DNA from: Anastrepha obliqua | Lineage: Eukaryota > Arthropoda > Insecta > Diptera > Tephritidae | Length of the DNA stretch: 64,000 nucleotides | Reading direction: 5' to 3' | NCBI RefSeq assembly: GCF_027943255.1 | Contig: NC_072895.1 | Coordinates: 46,474,001 to 46,538,000 of the forward strand | Part shown: positions 1 through 61,301 of the stretch, piece after piece | Position numbering within the stretch: the stretch's first letter is position 1 | Layout of the letters: the number at the start of each line of letters is the position of its first letter | Translations under genes and position numbers: made by a program | The notes under the pieces: model-generated | Databases searched by the model: none | Told to the model about the DNA's origin: nothing | Seen by the model: the letters and a program-made list of their open reading frames with translations, nothing else

Positions 1-2440
1 CAAAGTAGCTTCTCCGTATGACACAGTCAATTCGCGATACTTTTTAAACACACCTCGTATACGCTGAACCACTGCTATGGCTACTTAGAATTTTCTATCG
101 TCAGCGCAAATATTTTCAATCGAAACAGAACTGACGAGTGCAGAATATCGGTATATAAGTAGATATGTATGCAGCAGAATTTATTTTTCAGTTACTTCCA
201 CATTCCAATGTTCATTGCTGTACTGTATATGTTAAACAGTAAGCCGGATCGATTGTGGTTTTACTGCATACTTATACTATGAGATAGAAATTATTTTTAT
301 CCAAAATGACAAATATTTTAGTAGTTTTTTTAAATTAAAAATAAGTATAATTGCAGGAAAAGTTGGGTATGAACTGGCCTTGTATTTTTTGAAGATGACA
401 AAACTTTTTTTTCGGAAAATAAACACAGAAGTATATTTTCGTCCGAACTTCCTTTGTTTGAGTTATAAATATTTATGGTATAAGCGATTCACAAATTAAT
501 ACCTAAAGATTTAATAAGGATAAAAAATTGAAAATGATCTTTTGCAAGCTGAAAGAAAAAAGCAAACTATCCACAAGCTCAAACTTTTAGTCTAACATGG
601 ATATTTTTCATTATGTAGATCCTCCTAAAATAATTTCATTTGCTTCGGAAATTCCGTTTACACAGGTGGCTTGTACGATATTTTCAATTTAATGGTATGC
701 CAAATAAAATAGTATACGGTAAATAAATAAAAAAAAAAAACTCAGTACAACAAAATTAGAATTTCCTATTCGAACTGACAAGCGAGTGCACTTGCCATAA
801 CGACGATTTCTTCTCTTATCCAACCGCAAAACTTTTTGATATAGTATTATAGTATATACACCGAATATTTTGAAAATTCCCGTAAGAAACCAATATGTAC
901 AAACAAATTTTGTAAAAAAAATTTTTAAACTTTCATCAAAACTTTAAAATTTTTAACCAGTATTTTTATTTCTATTATGAAATATCGTTGATTTTTGAAC
1001 ATTTTTTTATGGCGGAACTCACTTTTCCTTCCGTATAAAAAAAATTGGGAAGAGAGAGGAAGGAGAGGCGTGACACCTCAGTAAAAAAAAATGCTAAAAA
1101 CCAAAGGTTTTTCCCGGCAACTTGAAACTTGCACCTTGTTGGTGCAAAGTTGAAAGTTTTTATCAAACTTTTAATTTTTTTTTGCTACAACAATAATAGT
1201 ATATTTATAACTTATAAAGGAGTATATATGAGGAGAAATCGTAGGGGCACGAATGGGTAAAATATGTACGTCCCAAATATTTTTATTGTGAAACTTTTCA
1301 AAGAAATCGACTTACAAACACTTCTTACTCGTAAGGAAAATATTTATCAGACCAAAAGTTGAAAAGCCACTGTAAAACAAAAAAACTGACACCAGCTGGA
1401 CTATCAGAGTTATTTGGACACTTTTTTTTTTCAAAAATGCTGTTGAACAGTATTATTATTGCTTATGAGAAAAAAAACCGAAACACGTAATTTTTTATAA
1501 AGTTTGGAACGTTTGACTCAAACGAATTTTGTTGTGGTCTTGTCTTAAACCAACTGAAATTCTCCTTTAGAAATCTATGCGTGTATACTTGCTCATAAAC
1601 GCTATGCAGCAGTTGTATTCAATTATTTATAGTATTTCATGAGCTTTTGTTGGCATTGTTTTCGCAACGATTTTCGAAGAATCAATTCACGTCGATATGT
1701 ATTTTTATAATTAACGTTTGCTATTCAAACCTCAAACGGAATTTTGTGTAAGCATTCAACGAGTGATTCATATGCGGGTATTTTGTCAACAGAAGCGTTT
1801 GGGAAATTAAGAATATTTTTTTTTGGGAATTGTGATATACAGAATATGTCACTTTTTTGATTGTACGACTGATCGATTTGATGCTAGCGCTACTCAGTTG
1901 AAGTTTTTTAAAAGAATCGTATGTGATAAAAGATTAAAACAAAGCGAAAAAAATGTACTTTTTTAAAACTTAAAATCGCAGTTTGTGAAAAAGTGATAAC
2001 TACATCCACATCTGCTACCATCTCACCTGCATCGCTTTACAAGGCATTAACAGATATTGGTAAGCCACTTCGAAAATTCATTCGTGGCCGCAAGTCAATG
2101 CAAGCTGCGCATTTAATGTTTCCTGAAATTATTTCCGATTTGAAAGAGAAAGCCTGTGCATATCAAACGTAAAAAGTTGGGGAAAAGCGATTGCAAAACA
2201 GATGCTAAGGTATCAGTTAAAAAAAAGGAACATTTTAGCTAAATCCAAAACCAAACTAAATTATTTTGGAAATCTAAGATGTTGATTAGAGAATAATTTG
2301 TGAGGAACACCGAAGAAATTGAACCGAAACCATTCCATTCATTGCTATTCATGCAATTATATATGCCTACTATGTCGGGTGTTTTTTTAAGAGCTTGTGA
2401 ACTTAAAATGATAATACGAAACAAAAATTGTTGGAACGAT
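1..2440. other. AT-rich DNA without a recognisable gene
   Basis: No coding region is supported here. Short open frames occur but lack codon bias, domain motifs or splice context. One stretch near 1985-2170 reads openly on the plus strand (it includes ISPASLYKALTDIGKPL) and could be a decayed exon or transposase piece, but I do not recognise it. Around 1120-1165 there is a motif (an AACTTGAAACTTGCACCTTG-like phrase) that recurs loosely near 45950, so an old dispersed repeat is possible. Confidence 0.5.
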
Positions 2441-2449
2441 TTTTTTTAA

Positions 2450-2755
2450 TATGATCTGGTAGATAATTTCATGGTATTAATTTCTAGCATAAGTCCGCAG
2501 CGTCTTACATGGTTCATATAAATCTGGCCGTATGGGGTCAATGGCGGCTTGAATATTGCAATAAATGGTTCGTTGAGTGCGATATATGGCAAGTTGCGCC
2601 ATCATGTAGGAACCAAATGTCGTCGATATTTAGCTGATTAATTTTTGGGCACAAAAATTCAGTCATCATCGCGCGAAAGCGCTCGCCATTCACCGTAATG
2701 GCAACTTCTTACTCATTTCCATAGAAATAAGGACCAATGATGCCGCCAGTGCATG
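2450..2755 (-). pseudogene. DD41D (rosa-type) Tc1/mariner transposase fragment
   Basis: Read on the minus strand this encodes GGIIGPYF, then VAITVNGERFRAMMTEFLCP, then DIWFLHDGATCH. That is the block between the first and second catalytic Asp of the same transposase type found complete at 6707-7789 (VTVNGERYRAMINEFF and QQDGATAH). The second catalytic Asp (HDGATCH) is present. The start, the third Asp and the termini are not recognisable, and a stop interrupts the piece. It is a dead fragment ending against the LINE remnant on its right. Confidence 0.7.
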
Positions 2756-2799
2756 AACTTCGCGAACAGATTTATTTAATATATTTAATTTATTAAAGT

Positions 2800-3828
2800 A
2801 AATTGACCTCTGGAGGCAATCTTTCAAGGGAAATGGTAGCATTTTCGGGCAGTTAACACTGTATTTCTCCGAACTTCGGACAGATCTCTCTATCCGTAAA
2901 CTAAAGTTTGAGGGTCGTGCTAGGGCAATCTTTCTAAATAGGCGGGATTGGACCGATTGATTGGGGAAAATCTGCACCGAAGCTTGCACCTCTGTCTTCA
3001 CTGACGGTTCCAAGATGGAATCGGGAGTCGAAGCAGGGGTTTTCTCTAAATCAGCCAATTAATCTATCTCCTTTAAACTGCCGAATACTGCGACTGTTTT
3101 TCAAGCGGAAGACTTTGCGATCCTGCAGGCATGCTAAATGCTCAAGGAACGTGGGAGCGAGGAAGATATTAACATTTTCTCCGATAGTCAAGCCGCAATT
3201 AAGGCTCTGACGGCGCCATGGTGCGGAACGAAATTAATAAACTCCTGTAAGGAGGAGATCAAATCTCTTGAATGTGCAGATAACATTTCTCTGATCTGGG
3301 TTCCAGGACATAGAAACATAGAGGGAAATGAAATTGCTGAAGAACTTGCCAGGAAAGGGACTGAATTGGCCTTAGAGACCTCCTACCCGGTCATCGGTAT
3401 CCCCCTGACACTTATTAAAGGGGAACTGCACAAATTATTTCTCAGGAAAGCGCAGAAAAGATGGAACTCCATTTCTTCATGTGCTATTTCGAAAACCCTT
3501 TGACCCCAGTACAATATACGAAGGACTCAGAAAGTCCTTTGGACTCCTCGCCATTCAATTTCCAAGCTCGTAGCTGTACTTAGCAGTCACTACACAATCG
3601 GCACACGCGGAAAGCCTAGGATTACCCTGCTTTCTCCGACAGCCAGGGACAATACACCAATCTAAATCCAATCAATCTCCTCCATTACGTCAACAGCTCT
3701 GGCTGTCTGCAGATATCTGCCTATTGGAGGTCTCATAATGGTATCAAAACGGCGCTGTAATGCTACTTGAGGAGTGCCAGACCGGCACGTCAACCATTTC
3801 ACCTACCTACCTTCCTGGCTAAATTTCC
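2800..3828 (+). pseudogene. LINE (I/LOA-type) 3' fragment with RNase H domain
   Basis: The plus strand encodes a retrotransposon RNase H domain: FTDGSKMESGV near 3000 (first catalytic Asp), LPNTATVFQAE (Glu) near 3080, IFSDSQAAIKAL near 3175 (Asp), and LIWVPGHRNIEGNEIAEELA near 3290-3350. A stop lies at about 3059 and another near 3135, so it is broken. The frame then continues to a stop near 3503, followed by degraded C-terminal sequence. A CACCTACCTACC tail near 3805-3825 marks the 3' end. RNase H placed after the reverse transcriptase is known in I and LOA clade LINEs. The reverse transcriptase itself is missing, so this is a 5'-truncated copy. Confidence 0.8.
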
Positions 3829-6584: not shown

Positions 6585-7903
6585 ACAGGTGGAGCTAAAG
6601 TAATCCTCCTATCAGAAAATGCTATACATTTTGCGATTGGCCCCTAATGTCAGTTCTGTTTTGACATTTGTGTAGTAAACACATGCGAAATACACGCTAA
6701 TAAACAATGTTACGCTACACTGCTCCAGAACGCGAAATATTGCTGACTATTTATTTGACCAATAATCGGTCGGTGACTTTGGCACAAGGTGAATTTCGTC
6801 GCAGATTTCCTCGCCGTCCAACGCTTACTGGTGAAACACTGCGACGTTTAGCCGCTCGCCTCGAAGAGACTGGCACAACACGAGATGCTGCCAGGCGTAG
6901 CAGACCCCGGAGTAGCCGTTCTGCAGAGAATATTGTTGCTGTAGCCGAGGATGTCATGGAAGCGCCGTCGACATCGACCAGACGACGTGCCACGCAAATG
7001 GGTATCAGTCGACGGTCTTTACAGCGAATTTTGGTACAAGATTTGAAGATGTTTCCGTACAAAGTCCAGACGGTGCATCAGCTGTTAGCTGCTGACCGCC
7101 AATCGCGTCTAACATACGCTTAAGCCATCCTTAATCACCACCAAGAGGAAAATGATTTTTCATCAAAAATAATCATGAGTGATGAGGCCCATTTCCATCT
7201 TAGCGGGTACGTAAATAAACAAAATTTACGCTTCTGGGGCACTGAAAATCCGCGTGTAACCCACGAAGAGCCATTACACCCGCTCAGCACTGTGTGGTGT
7301 GCTGTTTTCGCTGGAGGAGTCATCGGACCTTTTTTCTTCGAAGATGTCGCCAGCCAAACGGTTACTGTGAATGGTGAGCGCTACAGAGCAATGATCAACG
7401 AGTTCTTTTTGCCGCAACTTGATGAATTGCGATTGGAAAACATGTGGTTCCAACAGGACGGTGCAACGGCACACACTGCACGTGCCACAACCGATATGAT
7501 GAAGGATGCATTTCCCGGGCGCCTAATCTCCCGTTTTGGCGATTTGCACTGGCCGGCAAGACCGCCGGATTTGAAGGCTCCAGACTTCTTTTTGTGGGGC
7601 TTTTTGAAGTCACGGGCTTATGTGAACAAGCCTCAGACTCTTGCAGCTCTTCAAGACAATATCCGTAAAGAATGTGAGGACCTATAGCCGGAAGTTTTGG
7701 CCAAAGTGATGGAAAATGCCATAAAAAGGGCTCAAATGGCAATCAACTGTGGCGGCGGCCATTTACATGACATCATATTCTCGACTTGATATAAAAAAAA
7801 ATTAAAAGATGAAATAAAAATAATCCACAAGAAGAATCAAAGTTTTTCATTTTTTTTAAATTAGAGCCAAAAAACATCGGAAGGTTACTTTTGCGCCACC
7901 TGT
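6585..7903 (+). mobile_element. DD41D (rosa-type) Tc1/mariner transposon, nearly complete
   Basis: The 1319-bp element is bounded by terminal inverted repeats: ACAGGTGGAGCTAAAGTAAT on the left and the complement of GGTTACTTTTGCGCCACCTGT on the right. TA dinucleotides flank both ends (6583-6584 and 7904-7905), the target duplication of this superfamily. It contains one transposase frame that runs 6707-7789 if two stops are read through. Spacing of the catalytic residues (41 residues between the second and third Asp) places it with DD41D elements such as rosa, first known from the fruit fly Ceratitis rosa. Confidence 0.88.
6707..7789 (+). pseudogene. DD41D transposase with two in-frame stops
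   Basis: A 360-codon frame in constant phase encodes a cut-and-paste transposase. The N-terminal half (codons 1-138) carries the helix-turn-helix DNA-binding region, including RRPTLTGETLRRLAARLEE and GISRRSLQRIL. The catalytic half shows MSDEAHFHLSGY (first Asp), VTVNGERYRAMINEFF, MWFQQDGATAHT (second Asp) and WPARPPDLKAPDFFLWG (third Asp, 41 residues after the second). Only two lesions are visible: TAA at 7121-7123 and TAG at 7685-7687. By comparison with the family both look like CAA and CAG codons changed by C-to-T transitions. ATG at 6707 is preceded by AAACA, a good fly context. The encoded protein is inactive but recently so. Confidence 0.85.
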
Positions 7904-15334: not shown

Positions 15335-15555
15335 GGTAAAAGGATCTTTACCATGACAGTATACGAGTATTCTAGTGTTTCCATTTGTTTGTCGCATTGT
15401 GTGCAATGGGTTTTCCACCTTTCCTTTCACCCTATTTCATAATTCATTTTCTTTTATTTTTGTGTTTTAATATTAGTTTTACTTTTATTATATATTTGCT
15501 TTTCTCATATTTTTTATTTTATTTCAATTTACTTAATTTGATTTTTTTATTGTTG
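15335..15555 (+). repeat. 221-bp direct repeat, left copy (putative target-site duplication)
   Basis: The segment from GGTAAAAGGATCTTTACC to TTTTTTTATTGTTG recurs in the same orientation at 18413-18633 and appears identical by eye. The two copies lie exactly at the two edges of the RTE-like LINE. The open frames that cross both copies translate to the same protein for as long as the repeat lasts. Confidence 0.85.
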
Positions 15556-18412
15556 ACATCACTGCCATCCAAGAGATGCGATGGACGGGGCAAGGTAAGA
15601 AAACCATAGGACCTTGCGACGTCTACTACAGCTGCCATGTAAAGGAGCGCAAATTCGGTGTCGGATTTGTTGTGGGAGAGAGACTTCGTCGCCAAGTACT
15701 GTCGTTCACTCCGGTGGACGAGCGTCTCGCAACAATCCGCATCAAAGCCCGTTTTTTCAACATATCGCTAATTTGCGCCCACGCCCCGACGGAAGAGAAG
15801 GACGATGCGACCAAAGATTCCTTCTATGAGCGCCTGGAACGTTCCTATGAGCGCTGCCCCCGCCACGACATAATAGTCGTGCTTGGCGACTTCAACGCCA
15901 GGGTGGGCAAGGAGGGAATTTTTGGTCCCACAGTCGGAAAATTCAGCCTGCACAACGAAACATCCGGTAACGGACAGAGGCTGATCGACTTCGCCGGGGC
16001 CCGAAACATGGTAGTCTGCAGCACCAGATTCCAGCATAAAAAGATACACCAAGCTACCTGGCTGTCTCCTGATCGAAAAACGCGAAACCAGATCGATCAT
16101 GTTGTGATAGATGGAAGACACGCTTCTAGTGTATTAGATGTACGCACGATCCGAGGACCCAACATCGACTCGGATCATTACCTTGTTGCAGCCAAGCTGC
16201 GCACCCGCCTCTGTGCAGCAAAAAACGTACATCTACCTACGCAAAGAATGTTCGACATCGAAAAGCTGCAATCACAACAGACAGCCAGAAGATTCGCCAC
16301 TCGACTCTCACTCCTGCTCTCCGAAAGCACTGCCCAACAAATCGGCATGCGCGAGCAATGGAGCAACATTTCTCGTTCCCTACGTACCGCCGCCGAAGAA
16401 GAAATCGGATTCCGGCGAGCCCGAAAAAACAATTGGTACGACGAGGAATGTCATGCTGCCGCAGAAAGAAAAGATGCCGCTTATAGAGCCACGCTGCGAT
16501 CGGGCGCAACGCGAGCCATGTGGGATCGCTACAGAGAGCTGAAAAAGGAAGAGAGACGTATTATCCGAAAGAAGAAACGAGAGGCCGAAATACGTGAGTG
16601 CGAAGAGCTTGAGATGCTGGCCAACAGGAACAACGCCCGAAAATTCTACCAGAAAGTTCGGCGGCTTACAGAAGGTTTCAAGACCGGGGCGTTTTCCTGT
16701 AAGAACAAAGACGGCGAACTGGTGACTGACGTACAGAGCAATCTTAGATTATGGAGGGAACACTTCTCGAACCTATTAAACAGTGACAACTGCGCATGTC
16801 ACCGAGAAAGTGAAGATCCCGATACCCCAATCGTTGACGACGGAATTGTCGTTCCGCTACCCGACCATGACGAGGTGAGAATAGCAATATCACGGCTAAA
16901 GAACAACAAAGCCGCGGGCGCCGACGGACTGCCGGCTGAGCTATTCAAACATGGCGGCGAGGAGCTGGTAAGGTGCATGCATCAGCTCCTATGCATAATA
17001 TGGTCGGATGAAAGCATGCCTGCCGATTGGAATTTAAGTGTGCTCTGCCCAATCCATAAGAAGGGTGATCCTGCAATTTGTGCCAATTACCGCGGGATTA
17101 GTCTTCTAAATATCGCCTATAAGGTTCTAGCGAGCGTATTGTGTGAAAGGCTGAAGCCCACCGTCAACCAACTGATTGGACCTTATCAGTGTGGCTTCAG
17201 ACCTGGAAAGTCCACCATCGACCAAATATTCTCAATACGCCAAATCTTGGAAAAGACCCATGAAAGGAGAATCGACACACACCATCTTTTCGTCGACTTC
17301 AAAGCTGCATTCGACAGTACGGAAAGGAGTTACCTGTATGCCGCGATGTCTGAATTTGGTATCCCCGCAAAACTAATACGGCTATGCAAGATGACGTTGC
17401 TCAACACCAGCAGCGCCGTCAGAATTGGGAAGGACCTCTCCGAGCCGTTTGATACCAAACGAGGTTTCAGACAGGGTGACTCGCTGTCGTGTGACTTCTT
17501 TAACCTGATGTTGGAGAGCATTGTACGAGCCGCAGAACTTAATCGCTCAGGCACAATATTTTATAAGAGCGTACAATTATTGGCGTATGCCGATGATATT
17601 GACATCATTGGCATTAACAACCGCGCTGTTAGTTCTGCCTTCTCCAAACTGGATAAAGAGGCAAAGCGAATGGGTCTGGTGGTGAACGAGGACAAAACGA
17701 AGTACCTCCTGTCTTCAAACAAACAGTCGGCGCACTCGCGTATCGGCACCCACGTCACTGTTGACAGTTATAATTTTGAGGTTGTAAAGGACTTCGTCTA
17801 TTTAGGAACCAGCATTAACACCGATAACAATGTCAGCCTTGAAATCCAACGTAGAATCTCTCTTGCCAACAAGTGCTACTTTGGACTAAGTAGGCAACTG
17901 AGCAGTAAAGTCCTCTCTCGACGAACAAAACTAACACTCTACAAGACTCTCATCATGCCCGTCCTAACGTATGGCGCAGAAGCTTGGACGATGACAACAT
18001 CCGATGAAGCGACGCTTGGAGTGTTCGAGAGAAAGATTCTGCGTAAGATTTTTGGACCTTTGCACGTTGGCAACGGCGAATATCGCAGACTATGGAACGA
18101 TGAGCTGTATGAGCTTTACGACGACATAGACATAGCGCAGCGAATAAAGATCCAGCGGCTACGTTGGCTGGGTCATGTCGTCCGAATGGATACAAACGCT
18201 CCGGCTTTGAAAGTATTCGATGCGGTACCAGCTGGTGGTAGCAGAGGAAGAGGGCGGCCTCCTCTGCGTTGGAAAGATCAGGTGGAGAAGGACTTGGCTT
18301 CACTTGGTGTGTCCAACTGGCGCCGGTTAGCACGAGAAAGAAACGACTGGCGCGCTTTGTTAAACTCGGCCAAAATCGCGTAAGCGGTTATAGCGCCAAT
18401 TAAGAAGAAGAA
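15556..18412 (+). mobile_element. RTE-like non-LTR retrotransposon, 5'-truncated, recent
   Basis: The 2857-bp insertion starts abruptly inside the endonuclease domain at the codons for DITAIQEMRW and ends 29 bp after the stop codon in ATTAAGAAGAAGAA, a short tandem tail as in RTE-clade elements. It is flanked by 221-bp direct repeats. The missing part is the element's 5' end with the first endonuclease motif, as expected from incomplete reverse transcription. Two further copies of the family are in this window (46383-47482 minus, 59565-59948 plus). Confidence 0.88.
15576..18383 (+). CDS. RTE-like endonuclease/reverse transcriptase, N-terminally truncated
   Basis: One uninterrupted 935-codon frame. 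It is open back to 15556, giving DITAIQEMRWTG, the endonuclease motif with a catalytic Glu, so the ATG at 15576 is internal rather than the true start. The apurinic-type endonuclease follows (VVLGDFNARVG near residue 107, NQIDHVVIDGR near 172, NIDSDHYLVAA near 197 with the catalytic His). Residues 260-420 form a charged linker. The reverse transcriptase covers about 430-730: NNKAAGADGLPAELF, NYRGISLLNIAYKVL, FVDFKAAFDST, GFRQGDSLSCDFF and the catalytic LLAYADDIDIIG. The C-terminus includes LRWLGHVVRMD and GRGRPPLRWKDQ. The role is target-primed reverse transcription in the nucleus. No stops or frameshifts were seen, but lacking the endonuclease N-terminus it is unlikely to be mobile. Confidence 0.88.
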   Translation: MRWTGQGKKTIGPCDVYYSCHVKERKFGVGFVVGERLRRQVLSFTPVDERLATIRIKARFFNISLICAHAPTEEKDDATKDSFYERLERSYERCPRHDIIVVLGDFNARVGKEGIFGPTVGKFSLHNETSGNGQRLIDFAGARNMVVCSTRFQHKKIHQATWLSPDRKTRNQIDHVVIDGRHASSVLDVRTIRGPNIDSDHYLVAAKLRTRLCAAKNVHLPTQRMFDIEKLQSQQTARRFATRLSLLLSESTAQQIGMREQWSNISRSLRTAAEEEIGFRRARKNNWYDEECHAAAERKDAAYRATLRSGATRAMWDRYRELKKEERRIIRKKKREAEIRECEELEMLANRNNARKFYQKVRRLTEGFKTGAFSCKNKDGELVTDVQSNLRLWREHFSNLLNSDNCACHRESEDPDTPIVDDGIVVPLPDHDEVRIAISRLKNNKAAGADGLPAELFKHGGEELVRCMHQLLCIIWSDESMPADWNLSVLCPIHKKGDPAICANYRGISLLNIAYKVLASVLCERLKPTVNQLIGPYQCGFRPGKSTIDQIFSIRQILEKTHERRIDTHHLFVDFKAAFDSTERSYLYAAMSEFGIPAKLIRLCKMTLLNTSSAVRIGKDLSEPFDTKRGFRQGDSLSCDFFNLMLESIVRAAELNRSGTIFYKSVQLLAYADDIDIIGINNRAVSSAFSKLDKEAKRMGLVVNEDKTKYLLSSNKQSAHSRIGTHVTVDSYNFEVVKDFVYLGTSINTDNNVSLEIQRRISLANKCYFGLSRQLSSKVLSRRTKLTLYKTLIMPVLTYGAEAWTMTTSDEATLGVFERKILRKIFGPLHVGNGEYRRLWNDELYELYDDIDIAQRIKIQRLRWLGHVVRMDTNAPALKVFDAVPAGGSRGRGRPPLRWKDQVEKDLASLGVSNWRRLARERNDWRALLNSAKIA

Positions 18413-24130: not shown

Positions 24131-24849
24131 TATTTCCAAAATGTTTACGAGTATTTTATTAAAAAGAGCAAAGCTAATTAATGTAAACAAAATTGCGAAT
24201 ATCAATGGATTTTTAAGTGACTCAAAAGTTTTTGCATTATCGACTTAATATCAATCTTTAACACAGTGCGACAATTTTTAATTTTATTTCTCAGACATGA
24301 AAAGTGGTTGGTTAACATTAATTTATTAGCGAAACTAAAACGGTGAGAACGGTCTTTATTAAAATTTTGAGTCTGATTAAATTACAACAAAATCTTTAAG
24401 TATATGGAAGGACGAAATTTTCAAAATGAGGTTTTAAAACTGCATTTAAAAAAAAGCAATATTCCTTGATTTCAAAACACATTTTATTAATTTTTTGACA
24501 AGCATTGTTCTAAAATATCAAATTATCTCGACTTTCTTCTTTCATTTAATATTCATATGTCCATGTCATATAAATAGTTTCATAGAATAAGGATACTTTT
24601 TTTGATGCTAGGTTCGAATTGAGATGAGATGAGATGAAGAGATCAAAAAATTTTGACTTGAGTAAAAATCTTAATTTATCGGTCAGTCCATAATTTTGTG
24701 CGTATTTTACCCATAATTTCACTTTTGTACGATTTTTGCATACAAAAAATTATTCGCCGAATATAACGGAACTATTTATATTTTCTTTGATATATTGTGC
24801 ATTCAACAAGTGATTTTAATCGCGGATAGAATCACGTGTTGTTAAAAAT

Positions 24850-25400
24850 TAAAATGGAATCTTCGAACGCGTATAAGAGGCATATTTTGATTTTTTTTTA
24901 TAAAAGTGGTAAAAATGCAACAACTGCTGCTGCAGAAATAAACACTGTTCACGGACAGGGTACCGTGAGTGTAAGGACTGCGCAAAAGTGGTTTTCAAAA
25001 CTCCTTGATGATGATGGATGAATGGCATGGAAGGGTTCACAGGCACCTGGTTCAGTTGGGAAAGATTTCAAAGCTGGAAAAATGGGTTCCGCTGAGACTT
25101 TCCGTCGCCAACCTTCAGCAGTGAGTGAATGTGTGTTCTCAGCTGCTGCAATTATTATTCCCATCAGCTATCAAACCTGAATGAGCCACTTAACAAAAAT
25201 CGACCGTCTTTAGTGAATAGACGCAAAGTTTTGTTTCACCACGACAACGCAAGACCTCATACCGCAAGGCAAACATTAAGCAAGCTGAACAAGCTCAGAT
25301 GGGAGTTAATGCCGCATCCGCCATATTTTACATTAACAGCTAATTACAAGATTATCATAAAGTACCTATTGTTGGACGTCTTGCGCGGCACTCAGCGATA
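24850..25400 (+). pseudogene. mariner transposase relic
   Basis: ATG near 24853 reads MESSNAYKRHILIFFYKSGK, then NATTAAAEINTVHG and VSVRTAQKWFSKL, the N-terminal helix-turn-helix of mariner. After a stop at about 25020 and a deletion, the second catalytic block follows: SLVNRRKVLFHHDNARPHTA near 25220-25265, with the second Asp. Then ELMPHPPYFTLTANY replaces the expected SPDLAPSDY, so the third catalytic Asp is lost. This is a dead DD34D mariner. Confidence 0.72.
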
Positions 25401-26292
25401 TCTGGCTGAAATCAGAGCACGTTCACGTCCAACTCTTCAATGCGCCACCGAAAATGTTGGTTAATATCACTCAGTGAATACGACTACATATGCGCGTGGA
25501 TTTTCCAAGCTACAAATAACGGCAATGGCAATTTTGCTTGTTAATGTAGGCTTCATGCGAAATGACATTGGAATAAAATCGCCATCATCTTTCCACTACT
25601 ACAGCCCATACAGAAAAAATGTTATCGAAGCAGATGCCCGGGGGCATTCAATTTTGAAGTTTATATTGAAGTTTATGAGCAAATAAGCGGAGGTATGGTT
25701 TGGGAAGTTCAAGCTCGGATAGGAGGAAATCTGCGCTACATCTAACGAAATAGTATATCGTAATCAACCATGTAATGAACATTCGAAGAAGAAGAACAAA
25801 AAAAAACAACAACAACTCAAAGTGAAAGCTTGTCAGATCGGAAATAACTAATTTTTAATATTTTCTAAGTATGGACCATTTTTCTGGTTACCAGTTGTGC
25901 TAGCAAACGGCCAGGGTTGATGTTGATACTCCATTGACTCGTTTTTGTGTATAGAAGAAGATTCGGCAGATTAAATGCACAGCAATTAATTAAAAGGCAG
26001 CAAAATCACAAAAAAGAAAGAATTCCATCCCAAACTGCCACAATATTTTTTTTTGTAGTTCGATCTCCAAAGTAGAGCCATCGATTTTGCTCGCACATTT
26101 TCGAATAGCACGGGCAAATGAGCAATAAATAGCCGCAAATCTGTTCGATGTTCATTACTCGAAAATTTTCGAGCGGAGCTGCAGTATATTGAGCCTTTTC
26201 CACTAGATCGAGCATATCTATTAGGTATCTCAATTTTTTTGTCAGTACCTTTTTTTTTTGAAGATTTACAAATTATTTATAAACAGCGCTAA
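25401..26292. other. Gene-free stretch left of the Transib element
   Basis: No supported gene. A plus-strand frame of 70 codons at 25474-25686 shows no motif and may belong to the decayed mariner neighbourhood. Confidence 0.35.
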
Positions 26293-26297
26293 CGTCG
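26293..26297 (+). other. Target-site duplication CGTCG, left
   Basis: CGTCG abuts the left end of the Transib-like element and is repeated at 28064-28068 next to the right end. A 5-bp GC-rich duplication is characteristic of Transib insertion. Confidence 0.8.
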
Positions 26298-26336
26298 CAC
26301 ACTGGGGATTTTTGTACTGAGATGCGGAAAAAAGTA
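26298..26336 (+). other. Transib left end: heptamer, 23-bp spacer, A-rich nonamer
   Basis: CACACTG at 26298-26304, then 23 bp (26305-26327), then AAAAAAGTA at 26328-26336. The layout matches a 23-RSS of jawed-vertebrate antigen-receptor loci; the heptamer differs from CACAGTG by one base. The vertebrate nonamer consensus is ACAAAAACC, so this nonamer is only similar in being A-rich. Confidence 0.72.
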
Positions 26337-26742
26337 TACATACCAAAAAATATTTACATTTTTACTACTAACGAAGTTGTATATATTTGTGTATGAAAGG
26401 AACATGTTTAAAAACATTATTTTTTAAAACTATTTTTAAAAAAAATTTTTTTAAAAAATTTTAAAAAATGTTTTTTAAAATTCATAAATTTTATTTTTAA
26501 AAATATATGGAAAGAACATGATTTAAAACAATGTTTAAAAACTGTTTTAAAAAAATGTTGAAAATCAATGTTTTTTCCATATAGAAATATATACTACTGC
26601 GTTATTTGTAAAAATATGAAAATTTTTATATGGACTGCCGACAAGTGAATAAATAATGAACAAATATTTATTTTTAATGATGTCATACATACACAAATTA
26701 TACACATTACATATTCATATAAAACATATTTTTTTGCAAATT

Positions 26743-27558
26743 TTATTCTTGTAAAAGCGCAATTACTTCCTTGCTTAAATCACTGTGATTTTTCTTATTG
26801 AAAGAAGGTGTCAAATGTGATATCAACGGGTCTGATGTCACCATCATTCGGTGCATGATGTCTTGATTCGTGGCAATTCTGCTACATTTTCTGGAGTGTC
26901 TGAGTCTATACTTTTTGTAGTCTTTGTTTCGACATTCCTGAGCCTCTTCAGACAATATACCCACAGGGAAAATACAATTTTCCATTATATCCTCACCGTG
27001 TATGAGAATTTTATGGAGAGTAGTTGGCATATTGTACCATTCATACAAAGTAACAAACTTTTTTGCTGTCTCCATACAAAAATCTCCAAATTTTGTTGGG
27101 TTCACTGGCTCACGTATGGTTATGGCTTCAAGAATAACAGCAAATCTTTTAATTAAATCTTCGTCCAAACCTGTTATTTCAGAAACTAAGGTTGGATTGG
27201 CAAAGAATCTTCGTGACGTGTTTCCGGAATTTGTTGTGCCGGATCCTTGCTTGACAGTATCAACCTGTATCCCAATTTTATCTTTTAGCTCTCGTTTTAT
27301 CAATTGTTTTCTGGCCTTTTTTATTGGGCGAGTATGTGAGTCGACTCGTCCTCGTTTAAATTCCATATTATAGGCTACATGCAGAAGACACTCCATCAGC
27401 TTGATACGAGCATGGAGAGGTGACATGCCGAATTTCAGTGCTTCTTCATTTACGGGCCTGGATTGAACTTCTTCAATTTTATTCATAGTGCTAATGAAAA
27501 CCATTAACAAAATTATTGCCGCAGATTTTTTTTTTTTTTTGTTGCCCTGTGTTATCAT
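26743..27558 (-). CDS. RAG1/Transib-like transposase C-terminal protein
   Basis: ATG at 27558 opens an intact 271-codon frame. After a Lys run (KKKKK, residues 7-11) come SPLHARIKLMECLLHVAYN (46-64), GTTNSGNTSRRFF (107-119), LYEWYNMPTTLHKILIHGED (171-190) and GILSEEAQECRNKDYKKYR (200-218), then HSRKCSRIATNQD. I align SEEAQECRNKDYKKYR to the RAG1 segment containing catalytic Glu962 (GNESGNKLFRRFR), which puts the Glu at residue 208. SGNTSRRF aligns to the RAG1 NGNFARR block. LHARI would align to the RAG1 LHCDI block, where the second catalytic Asp is replaced here by Arg; that column is uncertain. The first Asp region is missing, so DNA cleavage activity is not expected. The frame has no stops, unusual among neighbours, so recent deletion or retained function are both possible. 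The RAG1 match is by eye. Confidence 0.7.
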   Translation of the reverse strand: MITQGNKKKKKSAAIILLMVFISTMNKIEEVQSRPVNEEALKFGMSPLHARIKLMECLLHVAYNMEFKRGRVDSHTRPIKKARKQLIKRELKDKIGIQVDTVKQGSGTTNSGNTSRRFFANPTLVSEITGLDEDLIKRFAVILEAITIREPVNPTKFGDFCMETAKKFVTLYEWYNMPTTLHKILIHGEDIMENCIFPVGILSEEAQECRNKDYKKYRLRHSRKCSRIATNQDIMHRMMVTSDPLISHLTPSFNKKNHSDLSKEVIALLQE

Positions 27559-28035
27559 TGCCAAAAAAAAAAGGCAGTGGCGCCTGGTGGCACCTGCAAT
27601 TGATTAAAACTGAAAGAGACGTTATTAAGGAACACGTTGATACTAGTTTCTGACCGTAGGTAAATGTAGCTCAACTTACAGATCCAAGAATATGAAGGAA
27701 TATGATTTTTTTTTTTGTTTTTGTAAAATTAATTATAAATATATAATCAAATGCTTCACAGCCTTTGTTCTTCCGGCTAAAATATATAAAAATATCGTAC
27801 CTTAAATGAAAAATAAAAAATTCGAAGTCGGCTCAAGCAAAAGGAAAAAAAACCACCTTGGGCTTTGAGGTTTTTTCTTAGTCAGTTCAATACTATAAAA
27901 CAATTATACTTTTCACATATCTATAAAAAAAAACTGTAAGTCGGAATTTAGTAATTCTTTTTGATTTTATTGTTGGTTCTATTCTGGAATTTAGAAATAC
28001 CATTAAACATTGCGTAGGTGGTATGTTGGAAATTT

Positions 28036-28063
28036 GACTTTTTTCCGCAAAATCCCCACTGTG
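28036..28063 (-). other. Transib right end: heptamer, 12-bp spacer, A-rich nonamer
   Basis: Read inward on the minus strand: CACAGTG (28063-28057), a 12-bp spacer GGGATTTTGCGG (28056-28045), then AAAAAAGTC (28044-28036). This is the layout of a 12-RSS. The spacer is the left-end spacer minus an 11-bp internal block. Confidence 0.72.
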
Positions 28064-28068
28064 CGTCG
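28064..28068 (+). other. Target-site duplication CGTCG, right
   Basis: Second copy of the 5-bp CGTCG that flanks the Transib-like element. Confidence 0.8.
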
Positions 28069-37336: not shown

Positions 37337-38354
37337 CAAAAAGTAAGGTGAATTTGGTTGTAAAATGAAAAATCTTTATTTATTCTTGTAAATCAATTTC
37401 ATCCCCTTCAAAATAATCCCCTCTCGATGAAATACACTTGTCCCAACGATTTTTCCAATCCCCGAAACATGCCAAATAGTCCATTTCCGGTATAGCCATC
37501 AGCACCTTCTTCGATTCAGCTTTTATCTCCTCAATCGACTCGAAACGCGTTTCCCGGAGTGGTCTCTTGAGTTTTGGGAATAGCCAGAAGTCACACGGAG
37601 CCAAATCAGGCGAATACGGTGGTTGCGGAACGATATGCGTGAAATTTTTGGCGAAATGGTCACGAAGAACGAGTGCAGTGTGAGACGGTGCATTATCGTG
37701 ATGCAAAAACCAAGAGTTGTTGGCCCATAATTCTGGTCTTTTTAGACGAATTGCTTCACGTAAACGACTCATAACGCTCAAATAATATTCCTTATTAACA
37801 GTTTGGCCAGGTGGAAGGAATTCATAGTGCACCACACCACGAAAATCGGAAAAACTGTCATCATGACCTTTATTTTTGAACGACTTTGACGTGCTCTTTT
37901 CGGTCTGGCCTCGCCTTTAGCATGATATTCGCTTGATTGGTCGGTTGTTTCAGGGTCGTAAGCATAAATGCAAGTTTCATCTCCCGTATGGATGCATTTG
38001 AGCTTGTCCTGATAGTTTGAAAGCATTGTTTCACACACATCAATCAACCGTTGATTTTTGAGTACTAACTCCTTCACTTTATTGACGTGTTGGTCATCTA
38101 TTGACTTCGATGGTCGTCCGGAGCGCTCCAAGTCACGTTCTCGACCCTCTTTGAAGTCTTTGTACCACTTATAAACATTTTTCTGCGACATGGTCGAATC
38201 ACCAAATGCCTTCTGCAACATTTTAAACATTTCCGCAGCCGAAATTTCATTCCGCAAACAAAATTTGATGGCACTTGCCATTTCATGAAAAAAATAACTA
38301 GAGCGAAATTTTAATCCCGCGAAGTTTGACAAATAAATTCACCTTACTTTTTGC
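37337..38354 (-). mobile_element. mariner (DD34D) transposon, internally deleted
   Basis: Inverted ends GCAAAAAGTAAGGTGAATTT (37337 onward) and its complement AAATTCACCTTACTTTTTGC (to 38354) bracket a minus-strand mariner transposase. The interior lost one block of coding sequence. Exact outer limits and the TA duplication are unclear. Confidence 0.8.
37380..38281 (-). pseudogene. mariner transposase with internal deletion and frameshift
   Basis: ATG at 38281 begins MASAIKFCLRNEISAAEMF (first helix-turn-helix) and continues with DSTMSQKNVYKWYKDFKEGR. After VKELVLKNQRL the sequence jumps to IDVCETMLSNYQDKL; the second DNA-binding helix and linker, on the order of 50 residues, are gone. The catalytic blocks remain: IHTGDETCIYAYDPETTDQ (first Asp), SWFLHHDNAPSHTALV (second Asp), PYSPDLAPCDFWLFPKLKRP (third Asp, 34 residues on, hence DD34D). 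A frameshift near 37830 separates the halves. The C-terminus ends GDYFEGDEIDLQE. The protein cannot bind its ends normally and is inactive. Confidence 0.82.
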
Positions 38355-46382: not shown

Positions 46383-47482
46383 TTCTTATTCTTAATTGGC
46401 GCTATAACCGCTTACGCGATTTTGGCCGAGTTTCTTTCTCGTGCTAACCGGCGCTAGTTGGGCACACCAAGTGAAGCCAAGTCCTTCTCCACCTGATCTT
46501 TCCAACGCAGAGGAGGCCTTCCTCTTCCTCTGCTACCACCAGCTGATACCGTATCGAATACTTTCAGAGCCGGAGTGTTTGTATCCATTCGGACGACATG
46601 ACCCAGCCAACGTAGCCGCTGGATCTTTATTCGCTGCGCTATGTCCATGTCGTCGTAAAGCTCATACAGCTCATCGTTCCATCACTTGCGATATTCGCCG
46701 TTGCCAACGTGCAAACGTCCAAAAATCTTACGCAGAATCTTTCTCTCAAATACTCCAAGCGTCGCTTCATCGGATGTTGTCCTCGTACATGTTTCTGCGC
46801 CATACGTTGGGGCGGGCATGATGAAAGCCTTGTAGAGTGTTAGTTTTGTTTGTCGAGAGAGGATTTTACTGCTTAGTTGCCTACTTAGTCCAAAGTAGCA
46901 CTTGTTGGCAAGAGAGATTTTACGCTGGATTTCAAGGCTGACATTGTTATCGGTGATAATGCTGGTTCCTAAATAAACGAAGTATTTTACAACCTCAAAA
47001 TTATAACTGTCAACAGTGATGTGGGTGCCGATAGGCGAGTGTGCCGACTGTTTATTTGATGACAGGAGGCACTTCGTTTTGTCCTCGTTCACCACCAGAC
47101 CCATTCGCTTTGCCTCTTTATCAAGTTTGGAGAAAGCAGAACTAACAGCGCGGTTGTTAAGGCCGATGATGTCAATATCATCGGCATACGCCAGTAATTG
47201 TACGCTCATATAAAAAATTGGGCCTGAGCGATTAAGTTCTGCGGCTCGTACGATGCTCTCCAACATCAGGTTAAAGAAGTCACACGACAGCGATTCAACC
47301 TGTCTGAAACCTCGTTTGGTATCAAACGGCTCGGAGAGGTCCTTCCCAATTCTGACGGCGCTGCTGGTGTTGAGCAACGTCATCTTGCATAGCCGTATTA
47401 GTTTCGTGAGGATACCAAATTCAGACATCGCGGCATACAAGTAACTTCTTTCTGTACTGTCGAATGCAGCTTTGAAATCGGT
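46383..47482 (-). pseudogene. RTE-like LINE, second copy, 5'-truncated
   Basis: Minus-strand copy of the element at 15556-18412. It begins within DFKAAFDSTERSYLYAAMSE (reverse transcriptase) and keeps the catalytic LLAYADDIDIIGLNN, YLGTSI and the C-terminal block RLRWLGHVVRMDTN with GRGRPPLRWKDQ, ending in the TTAATTGGCGCTATAACC complement near 46395. A stop or frameshift falls between the catalytic part and the C-terminal part near 46680. Residue differences from copy 1 are few (for example RRISLANK versus RKISLANK), so the family was active recently. No flanking duplication was found. Confidence 0.82.
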
Positions 47483-48139
47483 TAAGACAAATATTAGTTA
47501 ACTGGTACGAAATATTTTTCAAACCGAAATAGCTCAACCCCCCTAAATGGGAGGCAGATAAAAGACAAAAAAATGTATCCGAACTGCGACTAGTTTCAGG
47601 TTGACAAAAAAATTTGTTAATTTAAATAAATTAATTAATACTACACTAAATGGGGCTTACAATAGTCACCTGTTTTTTTCCTCCAAAAACTTGCTCAGAA
47701 TACATGATTCACACTTCTTCAATTGCTTCGTTAAAAACTTATAAAATGGTAAATTACCTACAATAACAAAAAAGAAAAAAAGATCTCCTTTATTGGTAAA
47801 CAATGTCAGCTATGAGTTTCACTATGTAGATAATGCACGAGTAAATAGACGTCCAAATCGTTACCATCACCGTACGAGTATGAGCACGCTAATATCATCT
47901 CTATGGATGTATGGGTCTACATTACACTTTTTTCCCTCTTATGCCATATACCCATATGCCCAGATAACAACATGTGCTTATCAGGCGATGTAATCTAAGC
48001 GAAAAAAATCGATAAATTATTTACTTAGATAAAAAGTGAGCGTTTTTCCAAAAAAATAACAGACTGTGAAAAATAACAGACACCATCCATTACACCAACT
48101 TCAAATAGAAACCGAAAAGTAATTGCAAAAAAAAAATAA
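47483..48139. other. Gene-free stretch
   Basis: No supported gene or repeat. Confidence 0.35.
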
Positions 48140-55127: not shown

Positions 55128-56398
55128 TTGGGTAATCGAACAAGTCTTTTCGTATTTTGTCAATAGATGTCGTTGGAGTCATCTATCTCCAGTGCTGTCA
55201 ATCACATTGTGTCATATCATATGGTGTTAGAAAGGTGACATTTAAAGCTTCATTTAACCAAAAAAAATTAAATTCGGAGAAGTTGAAAAAAAGTTATAGC
55301 TGTTCAAAAATGAGCGAAAATAATAAAGAAATTCGCTATATCTACTTTGAAATTTTTGTATAAAAAAGGGAAGAATGCCACGCAAGCCACCAATGAAATT
55401 TGTGAAGTTTACAGAGACGATGCTGTATCAGTTCGTGTAGCACAACAATGGTTCACTCGTTTCCGTTCTAGAAATTTTGACGTGCGAGATGCACCTCGCT
55501 CCGGTCGACCTATCGTTGAAAAAGTCGATGAAATTATGGAAAAGATTGACCAGGACCGTCACATAAGCTGCCATAACATCGCCAAGGCACTAAACATTCA
55601 TCATCGAACGGTTTTGAACCATTTAAAAAAGGCTGGTTGCAAAAAGAAGCTCGATGTTTGGGTACCACATGAATTGTGTGTGAAAATTTTAATGGACCGA
55701 ATTAACATCTGCAATTCTTTGCTGAAACGAAATGAAATCGAACCATTTCTGAAGCGAATGGTAACAGGAGACGAAAAGTGGATCAAATACGACAATAATG
55801 TGCGAAAAAGAGCATGGTGCAAGGGTGGTGAAGCTCAACAAATGGTCGCAAAGCCAGGATTGACGCCTCGAAAGGTTATGCTGTGTGTTTGGTGGGATTG
55901 GAAAGGAATCATCCACTATGAGCTGCTCCAGCCTGCTCGAACGATTGATTCTACACTTTACTGTCAACAACTGATGAGATTGAATCAAGCAATCGAAAAA
56001 AAAAACGGCCAGAACTGATCAACGCTAGGCCACACACATCTTTGATGACTCGACAAAAACTGGGAGAGCTTGGCTGGGAAGTTTTGATGCATCCACCATA
56101 TAGCCCTGATCTTGCACCATCGGACTACCATTTGTTTCGGTCAATGCAGAACTCCCTTAAAGGAGTAAAGTTGTCGTCAAGAGAAGCCTGTGAAAATTAC
56201 TTGTCGCAGTTTTTCGCCGAGAAACCACAAAAGTTTTACACTGATGGAATAATGTCTCTAGAAGAAAAATGGCAAAAGGTGGTCGACCACAATGGTACAT
56301 ATGTATTTGGTTTAATAAAGTTCATTATAAATATACAATAAAAAAAAAATGACTTGAATTTTGATTAGAAATACGAAAAGGCTTTTTCGACTACCATA
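55128..56398 (+). mobile_element. mariner (DD34D) transposon, near full length
   Basis: 1271 bp between TA dinucleotides (55126-55127 and 56399-56400). Inverted ends TTGGGTAATCGAACAAG with CTTTTCGTATT, and the complement of AATACGAAAAG with CTTTTTCGACTACCATA. It contains one plus-strand transposase frame with two frameshifts and a 30-bp deletion. The length is normal for mariner. Confidence 0.87.
55310..56341 (+). pseudogene. mariner transposase lacking its second catalytic Asp
   Basis: ATG at 55310 starts MSENNKEIRYI; a one-base shift near 55343 leads to LKFLYKKGKNATQATNEICE, then VRVAQQWFTRFRSRNFDVRD and PRSGRP, the two DNA-binding motifs. The catalytic part has MVTGDEKWIKYDNNVRKRAW (first Asp) and KVMLCVWWDWKGIIHYELLQ. 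At an A10 run near 55997 the frame shifts to RPELINARPHTSLMTRQKL. In relatives about ten residues ending in HHD stand between ELI and NARPH; they are deleted here, removing the second Asp. The third Asp is present in PYSPDLAPSDYHLFRSM. The protein is therefore catalytically dead even apart from the frameshifts. Confidence 0.83.
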
Positions 56399-60046: not shown

Positions 60047-61301
60047 CAGGATCCGCCATATAACTTTACGGAATTAAAAATGCTATAAAAAAGAAACTAC
60101 TCAATATTTTTCCAAACTGTTTTTTTTATTTTGAAGTACAATCCTTCCGGTTAATGATGGAAAACAACTTCATTCATATGGCACCATCCCATACGATCGG
60201 TCCAATTTTTCAACACATTTTCGATTGTATGCGGTTGTATTTCAGCTATGACATCGCGTATGTTGGACTTCAGTGCATCAATTGTTGCTGGTTTGTTGGC
60301 ATAACACTGGTCTTTGACGGCACCCCAAAGATAATAATCCAACGGTGTCAAATCGCAGCTCCGAGGCGGCCAAACGATATCAGAATTTCGACTGATAATG
60401 CGATCTTGCGCAATCAGTGCGCAAAAGATTGATCGTAGCATTCGCTGCGTGGCAAGTAGCGCCATCTTGTTGGAACCAAATGCCACCAATATCCTCCTCT
60501 TCAATTTCTCGGAACAAAAATTCGTTCAACATGGCCCGGTAACGCTCTCCATTGACGGTTACGGCCCCTCCTCGCTCATTTTCGAAGAAAAATGGACCAA
60601 TGATGCCTCTCGACCAAAACCGGCTTTTCTTCGAGTGCGTGCGGGTTTTCTGAACCCCAAATGCGGCAATTTTGCTTGTTAACATACCCGCCGAGATGGA
60701 AATGAGCTTCATCCGAAAAGATGATATTTCGGTAAAAGTCTTCATCTTCTTCAAGTCGATCCGAAGCCCATGAAGCGAAGCGAAAACGCATTGGGTGGTC
60801 GGTTTACTCCAGCTGCCGAACCAATTGGACTTTGTACGGCGTCATACCAACGTCTTTACGCAAAATTCTTCTCAATGATGTCTCCGAAATGTCCAATTGT
60901 TGAGAACGACGGTGAACTGATGTTCCTGGTGATTCACGAACACTCTCGGCCACAGCAGCAATATTTTCGGGTGTACGCACGGTTTTTGGTCGGTCACGCG
61001 TTGGTTTGTCAATAAGCAACCCAGTTTCTCTTAATTTTTTCGCAAAGTAACGCACATACGCTGCATTCGGTGCTTTTTTTCTTCCCATTGCCGTACGTAA
61101 TTTTCGTACACATTCCGCAACATTACCATGATTTTCAAAGTAATGTCGCAATATTTCCCAACGTTCTTTGAGCGTAAACACGACCATTTTCGTTCAGCGG
61201 AAGAATAAAACTAATTTTCTGTCAAATCAGATGACAGCTAAGTGTTACCATTCTTCAAATAATACCTAGTTCAAATCCGTAACGATAGATGGCGGGCCCT
61301 G
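60047..61301 (-). mobile_element. DD41D (rosa-type) transposon, second family
   Basis: 1255 bp with inverted ends CAGGATCCGCCATATAAC (left) and CAGGGCCCGCCATCTATC (right, minus strand), each followed by a TTACGGA phrase. TA follows the right end (61302-61303); the left flank reads TT, perhaps mutated. The transposase is on the minus strand. The terminal repeats differ from those of the element at 6585-7903, so the two are separate families of the same type. Confidence 0.8.
60151..61187 (-). pseudogene. DD41D transposase, one stop and two frameshifts
   Basis: ATG at 61187 starts MVVFTLKERWEILRHYFENH (first helix-turn-helix) and continues through RSQQLDISETSLRRILRKD and MTPYKVQLVRQLE to an in-frame TAA at 60806-60804. 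The same phase continues with MRFRFASWASDRLEEDEDFY and IIFSDEAHFHLGGYVNKQ (first Asp). A shift near 60620 leads to GIIGPFFFENERGGAVTVNG and IWFQQDGATCHAANATINLL (second Asp). Another near 60440 leads to VWPPRSCDLTPLDYYLWGAV (third Asp). The distance between the second and third Asp codons is 127 nt, i.e. 42 codons plus one inserted base, which fits DD41D. The C-terminus ends WCHMNEVVFHH. Confidence 0.83.

Follow-up and report, generated by a model that had tools for sequence, protein, structure and literature searches.

A Transib transposon family with one 12-type and one 23-type end in the tephritid fly Anastrepha obliqua

The element and its genomic copies

The window analysed here is a stretch of 64,000 nucleotides from the genome of the tephritid fly Anastrepha obliqua (contig NC_072895.1). 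It contains, at positions 26298..28063, a short Transib element flanked by copies of CGTCG. Each end of the element consists of a heptamer, a spacer and an A-rich nonamer-like motif, similar to the recombination signal sequences (RSS) of V(D)J recombination, with a spacer of 23 bp on the left and of 12 bp on the right. The coordinates, heptamers, spacer lengths, nonamers and CGTCG duplication of the original prediction were all reproduced when read directly from the window sequence (Table 1).

We searched the fly's own assembly (836 Mb, 204 contigs) with the whole element and compared 40 copies (26 loci and 14 further stretches, four of the stretches replacing shorter loci). When the inner motif was located in these copies, the spacer was left free between limits. 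The left spacer had 23 bp in 40/40 copies, and the right spacer had 12 bp in all 37 copies with a readable right end. In the other three (L032, L035 and L037) the right end was unrecognizable within the stretch taken. An earlier count on 30 loci agrees, with 23 bp in 30/30 left ends and 12 bp in 28/28 right ends. The 11-bp block by which the spacers differ was found in 40/40 left ends and 0/37 right ends. The original prediction had proposed to compare other genomic copies, and the spacers proved constant, neither variable nor equal between the ends. Because all 40 left ends have 23 bp and all 37 right ends 12 bp, the asymmetry is a feature of the family.

The GC-rich 5-bp target duplication predicted for the element, as in Transib, held for the family: the duplications agreed in 36 of the 37 copies with both ends. 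The exception, L019, has a damaged left heptamer as well. Fifteen different duplications were present, 24/36 of the form CGNCG, with A favored directly before and T directly after. When the 200-bp flanks of 28 copies were compared all against all, a single match between copies was found (87 bp, L002 and L019, at unequal distance from the element). The flanks being unlike among these copies, the insertions look independent.

Table 1 Features of the Transib element in the window.
Feature	Position	Strand	Details and basis
Target duplication CGTCG, left copy	26293..26297	none	Window sequence and copy comparison
Left end, 23-type	26298..26336	+	Heptamer CACACTG 26298-26304, spacer 26305-26327, nonamer-like AAAAAAGTA 26328-26336; inner motif at equal spacing in 40/40 copies
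11-bp block TGTACTGAGAT	26313..26323	+	In left end, not in right end
AT-rich subterminal inverted repeat	26346..26627		Arms 26346-26405 and 26568-26627, 80% complementary
Frame with C-terminal part of Transib transposase	26743..27564	-	Matches to HzTransib and P0001
Internal-deletion junction, approximate	27485..27487	none	BLAST segment limits against L031
Right end, 12-type	28036..28063	-	Heptamer CACAGTG 28057-28063, spacer 28045-28056, nonamer-like AAAAAAGTC 28036-28044 (minus-strand reading); 37/37 readable right ends
Target duplication CGTCG, right copy	28064..28068	none	Window sequence and copy comparison

Geometry of the ends

Both ends contain TGGGGATTTT in their outer part and TGCGGAAAAAAGT further in, the latter shifted by 11 bp between the ends. 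Inside the outer 15 bp, they share a run of 12 bp at offset 11 (13 bp with the preceding T). Shuffling the ends gave a shared run of at least 12 bp once in 2000 trials, and among 5000 pairs of 45-bp stretches drawn at random from the window, 7 had one. The claim that the spacers differ by one 11-bp block was borne out, the offset holding in every nonamer register tried. Against the RSS nonamer ACAAAAACC, as printed in PMC8289069, the registers 10/21, 11/22 and 12/23 (right/left) scored 5 + 5, 5 + 5 and 6 + 5 of 9. While the difference of 11 bp is secure, only a single base favors 12 and 23 over the neighboring absolute values, as the nonamer register is nearly degenerate.

The left heptamer was CACACTG in 39/40 copies, with one mismatch to CACAGTG. 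The predicted identity of the right heptamer with the V(D)J consensus CACAGTG stood for the window copy and for 22/37 copies, and failed in the other 15, which had CACACTG (14 copies) or CACGCTG (one copy).

A third motif common to both ends, ACATACCA, is found at 26338-26345 (40 bp in) and at 28019-28026 (37 bp in). There the 11-bp offset has shrunk to 3, and the sharing of this motif may be due to chance. The long AT-rich subterminal inverted repeat adjoins the 23-type end only; in many copies it was seen as an inverted self-match of element positions 49-330, at 66-72%. A local duplication as the source of the 11-bp block found no support, its best other match in the element being 8/11 and on the opposite strand.

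The transposase and the full-length copy

The transposase frame of the window copy matched the HzTransib transposase (6pqn) with an E value of 1.9e-77. In a full-length relative, P0001 (A0A2A4ITJ8, 625 aa), an uncharacterized protein of the moth Heliothis virescens, only residues 365-625 aligned with it, at 87.7% identity. The homologous part of the frame runs from ~27489 down to 26746 and corresponds to P0001 residues ~375-625. With six relatives as queries, tblastn found no further credible Transib piece within the window. As only ~250 C-terminal transposase residues remain, the window copy is non-autonomous. It cannot make a working transposase, because it has lost the region with both catalytic aspartates (P0001 245 and 352). 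These were assigned from conserved columns, with D in 19/19 and 18/19 rows, together with the alignment to HzTransib and its numbering.

The transposase matched HzTransib by sequence, by profile and by modeled fold, and on these grounds the element is a Transib; the proviso of the original prediction, that the transposase might prove unrelated, did not materialize. The Pfam RAG1 family gave an E value of 0.06 for the window fragment and of 2.9e-05, under the gathering score, for P0003, and the other Pfam matches look like chance. A GRPxK motif was present in 17/19 relatives, and GRPRK in L031; the profile match to the nonamer-binding domain (NBD) region of RAG1 reached only E 0.27. The fold alignments began near residue 140 of P0001, and the lack of a listed fold match ahead of it is not evidence against an NBD.

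In the full-length copies we read the longest minus-strand frame. L031 (3751 bp, G000:C5:2750500-2757000, minus strand) has CGGCG on both sides, and its ends are identical to those of the window copy over 45 + 45 bp. Its frame of 624 aa has no stop and aligns with P0001 from end to end at 89.8% identity. The DDE catalytic set is complete (D245, D352 and E561) and the GRPRK is kept. By manual counting on the alignment, these residues correspond to D126, D225 and E436 of HzTransib, in the numbering given in the text cited from PMC6941560. The transposase gene of L031 runs from the 12-type toward the 23-type end, with 1428 bp ahead of the start codon and 448 bp past the stop. Measured by distance, the 23-type end is the nearer one, and the expectation that it would be transposase-distal failed.

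The window copy equals L031 minus ~2 kb (L031 positions ~1193-3168). Among the 36 shorter copies, the BLAST limits against L031 were 1192/3169 in 25 and 1092/3169 in L023. The other ten had 1341/3190 (five copies), 1341/3265, 1106/2768, 1035/3546, 2426/3240 and 969/2766. All 36 keep 23 on the left and 12 on the right; therefore, different short forms moved or were copied with one unlike end pair. The CACAGTG right heptamer was found in L031 and in 21/26 copies of the window class, and in 0/10 of the other deletion forms.

The window fragment was sister to A0A2A4ITJ8 in a tree of 51 rows (100/88). Among the 120 relatives listed, 11 had an organism name and none of these was a tephritid. With ~90% identity to a protein from a moth, in a host that is a tephritid fly, the L031 transposase is a candidate for horizontal transfer between moth and fly; contamination of the moth record would be another explanation. 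Searches of viral contigs (by protein, end pattern and alignment) and of genome contigs (by alignment), in collections without insects, confirmed, as expected, no relatives outside the fly's own genome.

Proposed mobilization in trans and possible role of the unlike ends

We consider it highly likely that the window holds a young, internally deleted, non-autonomous copy of a cut-and-paste Transib, and that a 12-type end is combined with a 23-type end throughout its family, including the apparently intact full-length copy. The superfamily, the internal deletion, the end geometry across copies, the target duplications and the uninterrupted full-length copy are established parts of this reading. 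The mobilization itself is inferred: a full-length transposase from elsewhere in the genome would act on the window copy in trans. At each end it would bind the heptamer and, perhaps through its N-terminal GRPRK segment, the inner TGCGGAAAAAAGT that both ends have, whose depth differs by about one helical turn. The two ends would be paired and act as an unlike pair, and the element would be excised, then inserted at CGNCG with a 5-bp duplication.

Several observations weigh against this reading. The genome search scored only 40 of 540 candidate places, and the 97 matching pieces that it listed were taken to represent the 40 distinct copies. The nonamers agree with the RSS nonamer at only 5/9 (left) and 6/9 (right) positions, and ~9% of random 9-mers from the window reach 5/9. 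The 28 aligned copies have a median divergence of 1.2%, and their substitutions amount to 7/1260 (0.56%) in the left end, 8/1260 (0.63%) in the right end and 344/46413 (0.74%) in the body. No selection on the ends was seen in these rates, ends against body, among the 28 copies, and it cannot be shown because the copies are too alike. The asymmetry had been called functional rather than an indel of one copy. The second half of that claim stood, given the constant spacers throughout the family; a required function did not follow, the ends having substitutions at about the rate of the body.

It is quite possible that the asymmetry goes back to a neutral accident, an 11-bp indel in one end of a founder that spread by amplification. 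The main signals for the transposase would then be the outer heptamer and GGGGATTTT, with neither the inner motif nor its spacing being of importance. Hitchhiking of this kind fits the low divergence between copies and the ends without clear excess conservation, and most Transibs, including HzTransib, are described in the cited part of PMC8289069 as symmetric, with little nonamer similarity. However, over the inner 12-13 bp the two ends do not differ at all, though they do just inside, and the offset amounts to roughly one helical turn. In the 28 copies no gaps fell within the 45-bp ends, whereas the body had 515 gap cells, many of them from a few large deletions. In addition, 12/23-asymmetric ends recur in other Transibs, according to a passage of PMC8355894, and ProtoRAG prefers asymmetric ends, as PMC8289069 states in the same part.

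A further-reaching version of pairing between unlike ends is that the family transposase achieves it alone. Here the GRPRK would read the inner TGCGGAAAAAAGT and the one-turn offset would be required for synapsis, giving a 12/23-type rule without RAG2. We regard this as rather unlikely. In the section of PMC7204232 cited, end asymmetry is expected to have rather little effect on invertebrate RAG-like proteins, and by analogy this weighs against such a rule run by the transposase alone. If it were true, the family would be a ready-made system for studying how the 12/23 rule arose.

A RAG-like (RAGL) transposon carrying RAG1L and RAG2L, nearer to vertebrate RAG than to Transib, is highly improbable as judged from the transposase: RAG1 is the next fold match behind HzTransib, but the model shares 39-44% of its residues with the chains of HzTransib and 12-17% with those of RAG1 and RAG1L, and the profile E value is 2.7e-218 for HzTransib against 5.9e-13 for the best RAG1. 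An 11-bp block peculiar to the window copy is refuted by its presence in every left end and absence from every readable right end.

Other mobile elements in the window

At 15537-18383 (+) lies a long interspersed nuclear element (LINE) with endonuclease and reverse transcriptase. Its 947-aa frame is 98% identical to a database protein. Within the best 120 of 240 matches, the best relatives with an organism name came from two tephritid flies: Zeugodacus cucurbitae, at 81% over 83% of the query, and Bactrocera dorsalis, at 79% over 57%. This points to a tephritid host. A window frame of 206 codons had no relative, and Rfam gave no match. A second, partial frame at 46682-47497 (-) resembles the LINE, as judged by eye. 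Also by eye, frames at 24836-25464, 37380-38338 and 55314-56341 look like broken mariner transposases, and those at 6704-7687 and 60151-61193 like other DDE transposases.

Comparison with known systems

A single insect element combining a 12-type with a 23-type end had been put forward as a living model for the origin of the 12/23 rule, but such elements are already in print. The cited part of the review PMC8355894, citing Kapitonov and Jurka 2005, lists as 12/23-asymmetric Transib5 of Drosophila melanogaster and Transib2, N1, N2 and N3 of Anopheles gambiae. It names some Transibs as the only known 12/23-asymmetric transposition outside RAG-based V(D)J recombination. In the text cited from PMC9435367, all subgroup I Transibs have asymmetric ends and subgroup II has both kinds. 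Our family is a clean additional example of a 12/23-asymmetric insect Transib, not new in kind. It is young, its 12/23 ends do not vary, short copies are numerous and the transposase looks intact, so that the origin of the 12/23 rule could be tested in it using a single protein and two short pieces of end DNA.

Compared by description, the family resembles Transib5 and the Anopheles Transib2 and N1-N3: all are insect Transibs that combine a 12-type with a 23-type end and have a heptamer and an A-rich nonamer-like motif. It differs from them in the inner motif, here identical in both ends, and in the presence of a full-length copy. HzTransib of Helicoverpa zea, described as one of the symmetric-ended majority, is the Transib for which we found solved structures (six PDB entries, 6pqn among them); its solved chain lacks the N-terminal GRPxK segment of our family. 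The amphioxus ProtoRAG has spacers of 27/31 bp, as given in the part of PMC8289069 cited above, and both ProtoRAG and vertebrate RAG1, which acts on 12/23 RSS, have only 12-17% identity on the model. Known Transibs carry a single gene, according to an excerpt of PMC4411706.
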